Source: a virus. From it: 39,894 bases of DNA. The stretch spans positions 1 through 39,894 of the IMG/VR virus record IMGVR_UViG_3300037343_000264; one strand, given 5' to 3'. Position 1 is the first letter of the stretch. Each line of letters opens with the position of its first letter. The position numbers and the translations under genes are program-made. The notes beneath the pieces were generated by a model, which ran no database searches, was not told where the DNA came from, and saw only the letters and a program-made list of their open reading frames with translations. This document shows positions 8,375 to 14,186 of the stretch, piece after piece.

Positions 8375-9106
8375 ATGAGTCAAACGCACATAAACTATAA
8401 TGATAAATATCATAGAGTTATAAAATTCTCCCAAGGAGGAGTGATAACGAGTGCGCAATCTATTACTTTATCGAGAGACAAAGAACAATTTTTATCTACA
8501 GAAAATACTCTTAGAATAAGCTGTGCAGATGTAAACGCTAACAACGTTATAGAATTACAGGTTAAACTTTTAAGCGAAACTACGTGGACAACTTTAGGTT
8601 CAATAACTGGTCCCACATCTAAAACATTTGACATAAGTACATGGGATCAGATTAGATACAACGTAAGTAATTTCGATGCTCCAGGCACAGGAATTATGCA
8701 TGTTTCCGGGTTTGTATCACAACTAAATGCAGACGCTAGTTCAGCCGATTTTGTTAAGATAACCGACACGAATGGAAACGATTTAGTATTAGAGTTGCAA
8801 GATGGCAAATATGTCATTCCAGTCACTTTTAATACTCCAAGTACTACACCTAAAATAAGTAACTTAGCTATTGCAGTTGAAAATACTATTTACAGTGTTT
8901 TATTTGAAAATAACGCAAGCAAGATAATGGTACAACAAAGAGAAACAGGAACTGTTCAAATATCTTTTGACCCTGCCTTCTCCACGTACATAACCCTTCC
9001 TAACGGAACGACATATACCGAATCTGACTTGAATTTACAGGGAGTTACATTGTATTTTCGATCAACAAAAACAGGTACTCTAGAGGTCCTAGAGTGGTAT
9101 ACTTAG
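8375..9106 (+). CDS. Virion structural protein (beta-rich), unknown
   Basis: A 243-residue, beta-strand-rich, cysteine-poor protein with no catalytic motif; I do not recognise a specific family. The segments ISCADVNANNVIELQVKLL and ETTWTTLGSITGPTSKTF look like immunoglobulin-like or decoration-type beta-sandwich strands of virion proteins, with a second beta domain in the C-terminal half. It is the first gene after the capsid terminator and starts the module of small structural/fibre proteins. A capsid decoration or appendage role fits best, at moderate confidence. Confidence 0.6.
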   Translation: MSQTHINYNDKYHRVIKFSQGGVITSAQSITLSRDKEQFLSTENTLRISCADVNANNVIELQVKLLSETTWTTLGSITGPTSKTFDISTWDQIRYNVSNFDAPGTGIMHVSGFVSQLNADASSADFVKITDTNGNDLVLELQDGKYVIPVTFNTPSTTPKISNLAIAVENTIYSVLFENNASKIMVQQRETGTVQISFDPAFSTYITLPNGTTYTESDLNLQGVTLYFRSTKTGTLEVLEWYT

Positions 9107-9118
9107 GAGGTATAATTA

Positions 9119-9991
9119 ATGATCAGTAAACACAAAATTACATTTGATCCAGCAGAAAATGATGACTATGACGTAGTAGCATCATATCTAAAGGCGGCGG
9201 ACGGGACTTTGATCACCCACACCGGCGGAGCATTGGATGTAAACATTAAAACATCCGATATTGCTATCGAGGTGGAACTTGATCACGCTAATGACAGCGT
9301 CAAAGTAGGTGACGGCACAGACTTCTTAGAAGTTAATGCTGATGGATCTATTAACGCAGTAGTTAGTGCAACAGACCTAGACATCCGTGACTTAGCTTTT
9401 GCTACAGACAAAGTTGATGTTACTGGTTCTGAAGTTTCTTTAGATGCAGCTACTTTAGCCGCTCTAGAGCAAGTAACTGTAAGCGCAACTGATTTAGATA
9501 TCAGAGATCTTACGTTCGCAACAGACAAAGTAGACGTAACAGGTTCAGAAGTATCTCTTGATGCTGCTACCTTAGCTGCTTTGGAAAGTGTAACTGTTTC
9601 TGCAACAGATTTAGACATTAGAGATCTAAGCTCTTCTCAAGATAGCGTAAGTATCGGAGATGGTACAGATTTTCTAGCGGTAAACACTGATGGGTCTATC
9701 AACGTTCTTTCACAAGACGCAGGATACTCAAGTTGTGTAAACAGTGCAGTATCTGTTGGCACTACTGCCACAGATTTAGTAGCTGCCGATTTGGCGAATA
9801 GAAAAGAAATTACTATTCAAAATATGGGTGCTAAAGAAATTTACATTGGATGTGATGCATCTGTTACAATTGCTAACGGCATTATTGTACCTAGAGGAGC
9901 TACAGCTTCTTTCAAACTAGGACCTGCAATTAATGTTCACGCAATCACAGATTCCGGAACTGCCGATGTAAGGATTTTGGAGTTAGCATAA
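9119..9991 (+). CDS. Repeat-containing virion/fibre protein
   Basis: A 290-residue protein built from repeats. The motif VGDGTDFLEVNADGSIN (about residues 60-80) and its relative IGDGTDFLAVNTDGSIN flank two near-identical 39-residue repeats (nt 9362-9478 and 9479-9595) beginning VSATDLDIRDL, plus a partial third. The C-terminal 85 residues form a separate beta domain (VGTT, RKEITIQN, IYIGCDASVT) resembling the protein encoded at 10131-10436. It has a good ribosome-binding site (AGGAGG). It probably belongs to a virion appendage. Its stop overlaps the next start (TAATG). Confidence 0.75.
   Translation: MISKHKITFDPAENDDYDVVASYLKAADGTLITHTGGALDVNIKTSDIAIEVELDHANDSVKVGDGTDFLEVNADGSINAVVSATDLDIRDLAFATDKVDVTGSEVSLDAATLAALEQVTVSATDLDIRDLTFATDKVDVTGSEVSLDAATLAALESVTVSATDLDIRDLSSSQDSVSIGDGTDFLAVNTDGSINVLSQDAGYSSCVNSAVSVGTTATDLVAADLANRKEITIQNMGAKEIYIGCDASVTIANGIIVPRGATASFKLGPAINVHAITDSGTADVRILELA
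9362..9595 (+). repeat. Tandem 39-codon repeat, protein-conserved, codon-diverged
   Basis: Two consecutive 117-bp units (9362-9478, 9479-9595) encode 39 residues of which 37 are identical (differences A/T and Q/S). Of the 39 codons, 23 differ synonymously and 14 are identical. A partial third unit begins at 9596. Conservation at protein level with heavy codon divergence means the array is old or selected against DNA-level identity. Confidence 0.9.
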
Positions 9992-10131
9992 TGACTGACA
10001 AAGAGAAAATAGAGTTTCTTTTAACCCTTCTTAAGGAAGAGGAATTTAAAATGGGGGTGGAAAAAGCTTCCGCCCTCCTTCAATCCTACAGATGGTTAAT
10101 AGACAAGCTAAAGGAACAAGAGAGTAAATAA
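9991..10131 (+). CDS. Hypothetical protein, 46 aa, coupled
   Basis: This 46-residue helical, Lys/Glu-rich protein runs from ATG 9991 to TAA 10131. Its start overlaps the stop of the repeat protein and its stop overlaps the next start, both as TAATG, so it is translationally coupled on both sides. No family is recognised. The length, the charged amphipathic pattern and its position among virion proteins suggest a chaperone-like or adaptor peptide for fibre assembly, but this is only context. Confidence 0.6.
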   Translation: MTDKEKIEFLLTLLKEEEFKMGVEKASALLQSYRWLIDKLKEQESK

Positions 10132-10436
10132 TGGCAATAAGTTATAGTGGAGAGTACAACGAAGTCAATGATGGACAATATTTGTCCTCCAATATAACTG
10201 TTGGCACTACAGAAATCGAAGCAAAAGTAGGGGCGAGCAGACTAGTAGGAAGACAAAGGCTAAGAATATATAACGACTCATCTGTAACAATATATTTTGG
10301 ACCTTCTGGAGTATCTACGACATCCGGCGAACCCCTTTTAAAAAAACAATGGATAGAACTAGAGTTTGGAGACATAGGTGTCTTTGTTATAGCTGGATCA
10401 GCAGGAAATAATGTTATAATACAGGAGGTTTCATGA
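10131..10436 (+). CDS. Small beta-domain virion protein (paralogue of 9119 C-terminus)
   Basis: A 101-residue beta protein that looks like a stand-alone copy of the C-terminal domain encoded at 9119-9991. Both share the order VGTT, then a Leu-x-x-Arg-x-x-Ile/Leu-x-Ile-x-Asn strand, an Ile-Tyr-x-Gly turn, Ser-Val-Thr, and a final hydrophobic strand (VIIQEVS versus VRILELA). The shared pattern was seen by eye. It overlaps the next gene by 4 nt (ATGA). A virion decoration or fibre-hub role is likely; the exact role is unknown. Confidence 0.65.
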   Translation: MAISYSGEYNEVNDGQYLSSNITVGTTEIEAKVGASRLVGRQRLRIYNDSSVTIYFGPSGVSTTSGEPLLKKQWIELEFGDIGVFVIAGSAGNNVIIQEVS

Positions 10437-10906
10437 CAAGTAGAAAATCTCAAGTAGCAGAATCCACACCTTTTGATAACGATACTAATGGATTTATATC
10501 AGAAGATGTTCAAGGAGCAATAGAAGAGCTATCCCAAACAATAGCTACATCGGCTTCTCCAGGATTTTCATTTGGTAGAGCATCTAACGTAACATCAGGT
10601 ACATGGTTACAGTGTGAAGGCGTTCCTTCTAATAAAGCAGGAAGATTTGTTTATATAAATTCTGCAACAATAGAAAAGTTATTTATATCATCTGAAACAA
10701 TATCCACATACACTATAGAAATATATACCCATGAAGGAGATGCAACTAATTTAACACTAATATCTTCAGCTACGGTAACCTCAGCTAGAGGAGGAGTATT
10801 TACCATATCTCAAGCTATAACTACCAATACACAAATAGCCTTACGTCTTAGCGCAGGATCAGCTAGAAACATAGTGGCAGGTTTAGAACTATCAGGGAGT
10901 AATTAA
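10433..10906 (+). CDS. Tail-fibre-like protein
   Basis: A 157-residue protein whose N-terminus carries STPFDNDTNGFISEDVQ followed by AIEEL, a segment seen at the start of many phage tail fibre and structural proteins. The rest is a Ser/Thr-rich beta-sandwich (residues 45-157) that could bind host surface glycans. AGGAGG precedes the start. It is one of several short fibre-type subunits in a row instead of one long fibre gene. Confidence 0.65.
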   Translation: MTSRKSQVAESTPFDNDTNGFISEDVQGAIEELSQTIATSASPGFSFGRASNVTSGTWLQCEGVPSNKAGRFVYINSATIEKLFISSETISTYTIEIYTHEGDATNLTLISSATVTSARGGVFTISQAITTNTQIALRLSAGSARNIVAGLELSGSN

Positions 10907-11595
10907 TGAGTAAAATAGTAAAAAACAATACAGCAAGTCCACTTATAATATCAGACGTAGGTATAACAATAGCAGCCAGTAGCCAATATACTATACCTGC
11001 ACAAGATTACCTACTTTGGGCAGCATCAGATGACATCATAGTATCTATAGGATCAGGAGATGCAACAGTAAACGACGGATCTGTAGACTTAAGTAACTCA
11101 GATGGAGTAAAACTATTACAAGGAATATTTCCAAGCTCAGTGGGCGTAATAGGGGGATCAGACGATACTAGAATAGGCAACGAGGGCGATAAACTAAAAG
11201 TAGTATTATCTCCAATAGACCCAGGAAACTTTAACACATTTAAATCAAATACCGAAGTAAACCTAACCAGCAACACAACCTACAACAACCTACACACAGT
11301 TAATGGCTCAGGAGTATTAGTAGGTGCAACTTTTGTAGTAGATAATGATGAAGTAGATTGTAGAATACTTATAGATAACAACGTAATATTTGATTTTAAT
11401 GGACAATTTCTTTCTGAAGTAGTTAACAAAGATGGTATTTTTACAGCATCAGGGATATTTGGATCAACAAAGGATGGTAAAAGATTATATTTTACGCCAA
11501 GTACTCCCATAGCTTATAACACCTCTTTAGTGTTTCAAGCTAGAAAGTCAGGTAAAAAAGTTAAATATCAACTCTACACGTATTCGGCGGTATAA
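10906..11595 (+). CDS. Virion structural protein, unknown
   Basis: A 229-residue protein with an N-terminal beta domain (residues 1-70; IISDVGITIAASSQYTIPA) of the kind found as adaptor domains of phage fibres. A C-terminal jelly-roll-like half follows, with TNTTYNNLHTVNGSGVLVGA and FNGQF segments. The start overlaps the preceding stop by 1 nt. There are no catalytic motifs. Its role in the appendage or tail is inferred from context and style. Confidence 0.6.
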   Translation: MSKIVKNNTASPLIISDVGITIAASSQYTIPAQDYLLWAASDDIIVSIGSGDATVNDGSVDLSNSDGVKLLQGIFPSSVGVIGGSDDTRIGNEGDKLKVVLSPIDPGNFNTFKSNTEVNLTSNTTYNNLHTVNGSGVLVGATFVVDNDEVDCRILIDNNVIFDFNGQFLSEVVNKDGIFTASGIFGSTKDGKRLYFTPSTPIAYNTSLVFQARKSGKKVKYQLYTYSAV

Positions 11596-11596
11596 A

Positions 11597-12226
11597 ATGA
11601 TACAATTAAAATACAATGAAATAAAAGCTCTAATACAAGAAGGAAACGTAGAATATAAAAGCGTAGAAGCCTTAAGTAAAATAACCATATTTGCATTTGA
11701 CGATCAATTTAATGTTTATTGTGAAGTATACAAAAACAGCGATGAGCATATAGAATATTTAGCAACTTTTGCAAGCTCTGAATCATCAAAACTAAAAAAA
11801 GATTATTCACCCGCCTTTAATTCAAAAAGCTTACCAAATGGACAAAAACTATTTAAACGAGTCCATGGAGCAGGATCAGTAAGCATACCAGCAGGACAAA
11901 CGGGAATAATAGATTTTTCTGTACCATATACCCATGCCAAAATATCGGGAGCTGAAGTATTTGGTGGAAATCATTTAGACACTATAGATTTATTTATACT
12001 GGACACAGACACAAATACATATAGCGGAGCACCTATAGAGTATCCCAATTATTTATTAAATCAATTTGCCTTTGACGTAAACTTATCCCCGTCAGGACAA
12101 TATTTAAGTAACTCTAACTACGATGCAGACTTATATCAATCAATGGTAATAAGTTGTGCAATTAAAAATAATGGAACAGAAACAAAAATAATTTCTATAA
12201 ACTTTATTTTACACGAAGTAGTATGA
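11597..12226 (+). CDS. Virion structural protein, unknown
   Basis: A 209-residue protein with an N-terminal alpha/beta part (residues 1-80) and a C-terminal beta-sandwich (GAGSVSIPAGQTGIIDFSVP on). A Gly-x-Ser-Ile-Pro-Ala-Gly strand start recalls decoration and fibre domains. It follows the previous gene by 1 nt and overlaps the cysteine-hydrolase gene by 4 nt (ATGA), so it is part of the same late operon. I do not recognise a named family. Confidence 0.55.
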   Translation: MIQLKYNEIKALIQEGNVEYKSVEALSKITIFAFDDQFNVYCEVYKNSDEHIEYLATFASSESSKLKKDYSPAFNSKSLPNGQKLFKRVHGAGSVSIPAGQTGIIDFSVPYTHAKISGAEVFGGNHLDTIDLFILDTDTNTYSGAPIEYPNYLLNQFAFDVNLSPSGQYLSNSNYDADLYQSMVISCAIKNNGTETKIISINFILHEVV

Positions 12227-12738
12227 GAATAGAATATCTATTTACTAAATCTAGAAATAACAAGTTAGGCAGTAGACTAATATCCTGGTCAACAGGTAAA
12301 TTACATCCTGAACTAAATCCGTGCTCTCATGTTGCAATTAAACTGGGTCCAATAATAATAGAATCTACGTTAAAAAACGGAGCACAAATACAGCCATATT
12401 CGGAATGGATAAAACACCACGTCGTAGTATACGCATTTAAATGCTCAGAAGATAGAAAAGCAGTAGAAGTAATAGATAAAGTGTTTAAATCATTCTGGGG
12501 AAAATGCTATGACTATGCAGGAATATTATTTTTTTCTTGGCGCATGTTAGGTTTTATCCTATTTAAAAAGCCATTACCCAAGATAAATAGGTGGCAATCC
12601 AGTAAAAAATACTTTTGTGTAGAGATGATAGAAAAAATAACAGGTCAAGATTATCAGATGACCTCACCCATACAACTCGTAAGTATCTGGAAACAGGTAG
12701 GACTCGAGGAGCTAAGTGTTGAGAACTACAAGGATTAA
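12223..12738 (+). CDS. Permuted papain-like cysteine hydrolase (YiiX/NlpC-P60-like)
   Basis: A 171-residue protein with the order His-then-Cys seen in circularly permuted NlpC/P60 enzymes of the YiiX/YebB type. His36 is in CSHVAIKLG, a YDYAGILFF block lies at about residues 96-104, and Cys132 with Glu134 is in YFCVEMIEK. Such enzymes cut peptidoglycan peptides or act on amides and lipids. Its place within the fibre module, not the lysis block, suggests a virion-borne hydrolase that helps entry, or a host-modifying enzyme. Catalysis is inferred from motif order only. Confidence 0.65.
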   Translation: MRIEYLFTKSRNNKLGSRLISWSTGKLHPELNPCSHVAIKLGPIIIESTLKNGAQIQPYSEWIKHHVVVYAFKCSEDRKAVEVIDKVFKSFWGKCYDYAGILFFSWRMLGFILFKKPLPKINRWQSSKKYFCVEMIEKITGQDYQMTSPIQLVSIWKQVGLEELSVENYKD

Positions 12739-13133: not shown

Positions 13134-14186
13134 TTGAGTACCATTAAGGCATATCCCAAAAAAGAAAGATCAGTATCTGACGTAACTGAACCTAAATACG
13201 TTACAGCAACAGAACCCAGCAATGATTCCGAAAAGCTAGCATTAGATGTAAATATTGCAAACGCAACTGCAGCTATAGCTTTTACAGCAGGGGCTTTACA
13301 ATATAACTTAGACGGTGTAGATACTGAAGTCAGCGAAGACACAGTAACTCCAGCAAATTCAAAACCATTACCGGTAAAATTAGTAGGAGCTTCCGGAGAT
13401 ATTAATATAACTGCCGGAGATCTAAACGTAGCAATAGACGCTGCAAATGATTCTGTAAGACTTGGAGACGGTACCAATCTAAGCATAGTAAACGCTTCAG
13501 GAGAGCTTTTAGTAAAAGACGGAGCCATAGAAACAGGTATAGCGGGATTACAATTATCATTAGATGCAATAAATACAGAATTAGACAATATAAGCTTAGA
13601 ACTTGCAGATGTAAACACAGAATTAGATTTACAAACAACAGCTTTAAACTCTTTAGACGCCAAAGACTTTGCTACCGAAACTAGCCTAAGTGCTTTAAAC
13701 GCAAAAGTAACCTCAGTAGACACCACAGGAAAATCAACAGAAGCAAAACAAGACTCTATAATCCTTGAATTACAAGATATAGAATTAGACGTAGAAGCAA
13801 CAAATACCAAATTAGATACAGTTATAACAGAACAAGCAGCTCAAGGCATATCTCTAGATGATGTAAATACAGAATTAGATAGCCAAACGGTAATTTTAAC
13901 ATCTTTAGACGGCAAAGATTACGCTTTAGCTGCTAATCAAACAACTGCAAACGCTTCCTTGGCTAACATAGAATCGGACTTAAATGAGTTAAATGCAAGA
14001 TTAGCCGGAAACTTAGTTCCAGAAACTTTTGATTATTTAGAATTAGCTTATGTTACTTCCGGAAATGGAATTGGCGAAATAGAAACAGTTATATATAAAA
14101 CAGGCGGAGCTGCAGGAACTACGGTGGCAACACTAACTCTAGCATACGATGTTTCAAACAATTTAACCTCTGTGACTAGGAGCTAG
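13134..14186 (+). CDS. Coiled-coil tail-fibre-like protein
   Basis: A 350-residue protein starting at TTG 13134, supported by AGGAG five bases before. The N-terminal third has DSVRLGDGTNLSIVNASGE, related to the GDGTDFL motif of the protein at 9119. The middle (residues about 140-290) is a long Leu/Asp/Glu coiled coil with a repeated unit DVNTELD-QT--L-SLD-KD (twice, some 85 residues apart). The C-terminus is a beta domain (FDYLELAYVTSGNGIGEIE). Trimeric fibre stalk is the most likely role. Confidence 0.75.
   Translation: MSTIKAYPKKERSVSDVTEPKYVTATEPSNDSEKLALDVNIANATAAIAFTAGALQYNLDGVDTEVSEDTVTPANSKPLPVKLVGASGDINITAGDLNVAIDAANDSVRLGDGTNLSIVNASGELLVKDGAIETGIAGLQLSLDAINTELDNISLELADVNTELDLQTTALNSLDAKDFATETSLSALNAKVTSVDTTGKSTEAKQDSIILELQDIELDVEATNTKLDTVITEQAAQGISLDDVNTELDSQTVILTSLDGKDYALAANQTTANASLANIESDLNELNARLAGNLVPETFDYLELAYVTSGNGIGEIETVIYKTGGAAGTTVATLTLAYDVSNNLTSVTRS

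Follow-up and report, generated by a model that had tools for sequence, protein, structure and literature searches.

Genome setting and architecture of the repeat protein

The window, by which we mean the whole stretch of DNA analyzed, is an IMG/VR virus record of 39,894 bases. Its plus strand codes for a terminase, a P22/SU10-type portal, a scaffold candidate, an SU10-type major capsid protein (MCP), and an SU10-type adaptor, and its minus strand has genes for DNA polymerase A and a primase-polymerase. With this gene content, the element is a podovirus-like (short-tailed), P22/SU10-like uncultured phage. The repeat gene (Table 1) lies two genes 3' of the MCP gene and 5' of the SU10-type adaptor, i.e., in the late structural block, as expected of a gene for a virion fiber or decoration protein. 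Homologs of the genes starting at 8375, 10131, 10433, 10906, and 11597 form a recurring cassette around the repeat gene in other phages, and at one locus (L104) the repeat gene is placed 3' of an MCP unrelated to that of the window.

Table 1. Features of the repeat gene and its surroundings (positions in the window; L numbers are loci of relatives)
Feature	Position	Strand	Basis
Gene upstream of the repeat gene	8375..9106	+	Homologs also 5' of the repeat gene in L015, L117, L116, L130, L145, L121, L128, L129, L146
Repeat protein gene, 290 residues, predicted virion fiber/decoration protein	9119..9991	+	ORF; C terminus matches phrog_30212; syntenic homologs in L015, L014
N-terminal region, residues 1-48	9119..9262	+	Conserved in syntenic and unrelated carriers; AF2 monomer confidence low
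C module, copy 1 (LDHANDSVKVGDGTDFLEVNADGSINAV)	9278..9361	+	Motif as in 9629-9709 and in L104, L117, L121 units
Unit 1: A module DLDIRDLAFATDKVDVTGS and B module EVSLDAATLAALEQVT	9362..9478	+	In-register repeat comparison
Unit 2: 37/39 residues identical to unit 1, 23 synonymous codon differences	9479..9595	+	In-register repeat comparison
Third A unit, truncated (VSATDLDIRDL)	9596..9628	+	In-register repeat comparison
C module, copy 2 (SSSQDSVSIGDGTDFLAVNTDGSINVL)	9629..9709	+	Motif shared with copy 1
C-terminal beta (jelly-roll) domain, residues 201-290	9719..9988	+	AF2 pLDDT 78-96 per 10-residue block; phrog_30212; Foldseek
Gene downstream, same cassette, paralogous C-terminal domain (phrog_30212)	10131..10436	+	phrog_30212 match; recurring cassette
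Three more cassette genes (10433-10906, 10906-11595, 11597-12226)	10433..12226	+	Recur near the repeat gene in L004, L121, L109, L112, L116, L118

A first-pass annotation had reported a 39-residue repeat that is preserved in protein and recoded in DNA, and its coordinates, frame, and counts all proved exact. The context that it lacked is that these are not two isolated copies: from the N-terminal region, the protein runs through an array with the order C-AB-AB-A'C to the C-terminal domain. The A module reads ATDLDIRDL-FATDKVDVSGS, and its third copy switches after 11 residues to a C-type module (DSVSIGDGTDFLAVNTDGSIN), a copy of which precedes unit 1. Searches with phmmer using residues 1-48 retrieved L015, L014, L137, L130, and 11 others.

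The sequence relationships of the C-terminal domain and of the remainder of the protein differ. Window residues 202-287 align with positions 115-199 of the 202-position profile of phrog_30212, a phage family of unknown function (E value of 6.4e-8); this is a match at the level of the domain and not whole-protein membership, the repeat array and the N terminus lying outside it. For the latter two, no PHROG, Pfam, or PDB sequence match rose above noise. The phage record searches found no cultured phage match for the protein, and tblastn gave no match in 50,697 phage records whether the query was the protein, its array, or its C-terminal domain, an outcome to which low-complexity filtering may have contributed. 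Literature searches on the motif and on DUF6385 (see below) found nothing. PHROG matches in the repeat regions of relatives (cro-like repressor and HTH) were rejected as short, weak, and inconsistent, and weak Pfam matches in the same regions were likewise rejected.

Structure prediction had been proposed for the array by the first-pass annotation. AlphaFold2 (AF2) with a 17-sequence alignment modeled the C-terminal beta domain confidently, while the repeats, as a monomer, reached a pLDDT of only ~55 to 76 and showed just one short helix per B module; a second carrier with a different C-terminal domain (L097) gave a like outcome. We weighted Foldseek matches only for the confident C-terminal domains. 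Small phage proteins were the stronger matches for that of the window, and its PDB matches were weak. The best of these, over ~95 to 100 columns, are the Ena endospore appendage subunits of Bacillus, but the match is poor (E value of 3.5e-4, TM score of ~0.44 by target), cupins score nearly equally, and there is no accompanying sequence match; nor did the window protein have a Pfam match that would assign it by sequence to an Ena/DUF6385 appendage-like jelly roll. The C-terminal domain of L097 gave weak fiber-tip and C1q-like matches.

Several other features of the genome may be recorded here. The phrog_30212-type domain occurs in two adjacent genes (9719-9988 and 10131-10436), pointing to duplication of a head domain within the cassette. 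Inside the structural block, gene 12223-12738 has weak matches to Peptidase_C92 (permuted papain-like amidase) and phrog_1128. Gene 13134-14186 combines a C-type module (DSVRLGDGTNLSIVN) with a following LD/ELD-rich region that may be a coiled coil. In the replication half of the genome, 35252-35893 on the minus strand codes for a pentapeptide-repeat protein.

Synonymous saturation between repeat units

Apart from the synonymously different codons, units 1 and 2 have 14 identical codons and two replacements (A/T and Q/S). The 32 nucleotide differences include 24 at third positions, and DNA identity is 73% over 117 nt in register, the protein repeat being far above chance. The dN/dS comparison suggested by the first-pass annotation (NG86) gave a pS of 0.85, which is saturated and leaves the Jukes-Cantor dS undefined, and a dN of 0.08.

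To this pattern the first-pass annotation had attached three possible causes: strong protein constraint, selection against DNA identity, and import of a unit from a relative with other codons. We set the observed differences against the number expected if the 37 residues in common were encoded twice, independently, with the phage's own codon usage. The 23 synonymous differences compare with 21.2 expected (standard deviation of 2.9), and the longest exact run is 11 nt compared with 12.8 nt expected for random synonymous codons. The same holds for 51 within-protein unit pairs from 24 arrays, which have 888 synonymous differences versus 898.5 at saturation, and for the phage-only subset of 47 pairs from 22 arrays (822 versus ~817 expected), which omits the four pairs of the clostridial loci L153 and L154 and in which L152, a locus from a MAG that has a P22-type portal upstream, is treated as phage. 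On average, the longest exact run measures 13.8 nt versus 11.9 nt expected; it is significantly short in 1 of the 51 pairs and long in 9, and no pair has significantly low DNA identity.

A repeat recoded to avoid recombination should be recognizable by differences beyond saturation or by shortened exact runs, and neither was found. With synonymous changes at the saturation level and no shortening of exact runs relative to chance, we see no sign that DNA identity was selected against beyond what age explains. That the two units were actively selected to have different codons is very improbable: the excess of 23 over 21.2 in the window pair, which favors it, is within the random range, and over all 51 pairs the count, the DNA identities, and the single short run speak against it. 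Import fares no better, as both units have codon-usage likelihoods in the phage's usual range (P = 0.35 and 0.51). What stands of the three is strong protein constraint, to which both the low dN against a saturated dS and the invariance of the same core residues in 76-77 units from many uncultured phages testify. Synonymous saturation is also nearly reached by orthologous genes of related phages; the MCPs of the window and L013 have 79% residue identity at a synonymous ratio of 0.91 of saturation. The repeat unit combines 95% identity with full saturation and so is under stronger constraint than the capsid protein.

The module in other phages and in clostridial genes

IMG/VR scans with the window protein and a related array yielded 69 loci, several of which are the same contig repeated, and GTDB genomes added four. 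There are ~60 related proteins in uncultured phages, with one to six units each. The core LDIR-L-F-TD--D---S is invariant in 76 units. These loci were found by exact peptide seeds and their units picked by a loose motif filter; in a recount on 27 units from 18 loci without the FATD-type seed, D5, R7, D17, and S21, which neither seed nor filter forces, were still invariant. Units that are kept in protein and synonymously saturated proved general when the codon pattern in related phages was examined; for example, L005 has five A units with 20 to 23 of 23 residues identical and nearly saturated synonymous sites. Among the carriers, the repeat core is attached to differing, unrelated N- and C-terminal domains, and the A, B, and C modules are arranged in many different ways.

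The first-pass annotation had held that single units, or units identical in DNA through recent duplication, in relatives would speak against its proposal. This was borne out in part, as there are relatives with no unit or one, and a few arrays are recent duplicates at the DNA level. Among the 80 capsid-anchored relatives kept, the syntenic gene of L014 is without A units and that of L015 has a single complete one together with an A'C, and the strict motif, which could miss degenerate variants, is absent from 38 further relatives whose available sequence extends 3 kb or more past the capsid gene. Copy number differs by single units even between close relatives: precisely one 51-residue unit separates L123 (2917-3906) from L140 (2917-3753), and one of 39 residues separates L116 from L132. 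The boundary repeats present in L123 are only 64% identical in DNA, and no exact match between them is longer than 6 nt; that the one-unit change occurred despite this low identity indicates that recoding has not frozen copy number. A recent duplication within a phage array is seen in L003 (5569-8859), where two tandem units agree in 28/28 residues with one synonymous change, and L095 and L122 are partial cases. Altogether, 2 of 22 phage arrays (L003 and L095) have any unit pair below half of synonymous saturation.

The clostridial chromosomal relatives provide a comparison. Ruminiclostridium hungatei (L154, 2857-3597) and a MAG (L153, 1231-2121) have SATDLDIRNL--QDN units. Like the window protein, DUF6385 proteins such as that of R. 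hungatei have these units ahead of a C-terminal domain; unlike it, they are products of cellular genes beside DUF6530, as in L154, their C-terminal domain is of another family, and in related genomes their units are homogenized at the DNA level. Loci L185 to L189, of the same family, have 43-residue QLDIRPL units in three to eight copies, and four of them (L185 to L188) are on megabase contigs. All five of these arrays have a unit pair below half of saturation, with values down to 0.00 to 0.16 in L185, which demonstrates that our method does detect young duplications; as the arrays are related to one another, they are not five independent cases, and the comparison is informal. Given that these relatives homogenize their units, the scarcity of young duplicates among the phage arrays appears genuine, and it poses a modest question. 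In this weaker form the idea of the first-pass annotation survives: phage arrays seldom contain young copies identical in DNA, in contrast to bacterial chromosomal arrays of related modules. The clostridial LDIR-repeat genes (L154, L153, and L185 to L189, with two to eight copies) possibly code for surface or spore proteins that have modules in common with phage virion proteins.

Role and evolution of the array

We consider it probable, with a good measure of reserve, that the repeat is an old, strictly conserved module, that its recoding is the passive result of age and protein constraint, and that it forms the modular shaft of a virion surface protein of the fiber or decoration type. A virion location is suggested by the gene position and neighbors. 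The core shared across unrelated terminal domains, the recurring cassette, and the placement in L104 lead us to read the array as a shaft, and the repeat architecture and low monomer confidence are consistent with this role and with an oligomer of the repeats; the low confidence of the repeat model at the same time weakens the case for both. A shaft of C-AB-AB-A'C, probably elongated, would connect the N-terminal region with the jelly-roll head at the C terminus, with the A module as a building block common to many unrelated uncultured phages. The two copies would have been separate long enough for synonymous saturation while purifying selection held the protein nearly unchanged; the extreme constraint would probably stem from lateral packing in a homo-oligomer. 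Repetitive shafts exist in viral fibers, such as the beta-spiral of the adenovirus fiber and the T4 short tail fiber. The window protein resembles them, as far as its sequence tells, in having an N-terminal region, a variable number of short, probably beta-rich units, and a C-terminal beta head, but it has no sequence match to them and its unit is more conserved than expected of a shaft.

Under passive aging alone, arrays should differ widely in age, but young ones are very few among phages, in contrast to the related clostridial arrays, which are young. One explanation is that DNA-identical copies are deleted by recombination or are unable to spread, so that only already diverged arrays persist; recoding would then follow from selection on array stability rather than from age alone. 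The 2/22 phage arrays with a young pair against 5/5 in clostridia, together with the one-unit change between L123 and L140, agree with this. However, it is without a codon-level signature, since differences are at and not above saturation and exact runs are unshortened, the L123/L140 change itself shows copy number to be unfrozen, and the five clostridial arrays are mutually related, so that we regard it as quite unlikely. The scarcity could also be an artifact, with short-read metagenome assembly collapsing or breaking DNA-identical arrays: the phage arrays are on metagenome-type contigs, and several homogenized clostridial arrays (L185 to L188) are on megabase ones. Yet the two near-identical 84-nt units of L003 were assembled, although collapse may still remove some identical phage arrays. 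In de Bruijn assembly, identity between two copies should not prevent recovery of an array that is shorter than the assembly word. As artifact would also leave the full saturation of the assembled arrays unaccounted for, we think it an improbable explanation.

A further route is growth of arrays by recombination of diverged units from other phages or positions, so that neighbors are never recent duplicates. Consistent with this, comparisons of unit cores give nearly the same similarity between viruses (18.7/23) as they do inside one array (19.8/23), unit 1 has higher DNA identity to units of L146, L116, and L120 (0.80 to 0.83) than to unit 2 (0.72), and the modules are found in varied orders on different terminal domains. 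Against it, both window units are in the phage's own codon usage, and between-virus pairs do not exceed 0.84 DNA identity, which points to no particular donor; with ~70 units compared, the best matches may simply be the extremes that chance produces. On balance, we find such shuffling somewhat unlikely. It remains a rather speculative proposition that phage arrays are without the tandem-duplication turnover seen in bacterial ones, either because identical copies are purged or because only diverged cassettes are recombined.

Were phage arrays indeed free of tandem turnover, a very strictly conserved virion peptide would be kept as several DNA versions within one gene. The striking recoding in the window itself reduces to synonymous saturation. 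The analysis defines an unannotated, very strictly conserved repeat module, common to many uncultured phages and some clostridial chromosomal genes, for which Pfam, PHROGs, and PDB gave no convincing sequence match; its presence in both phage and chromosome offers a natural comparison for the evolution of tandem repeats.
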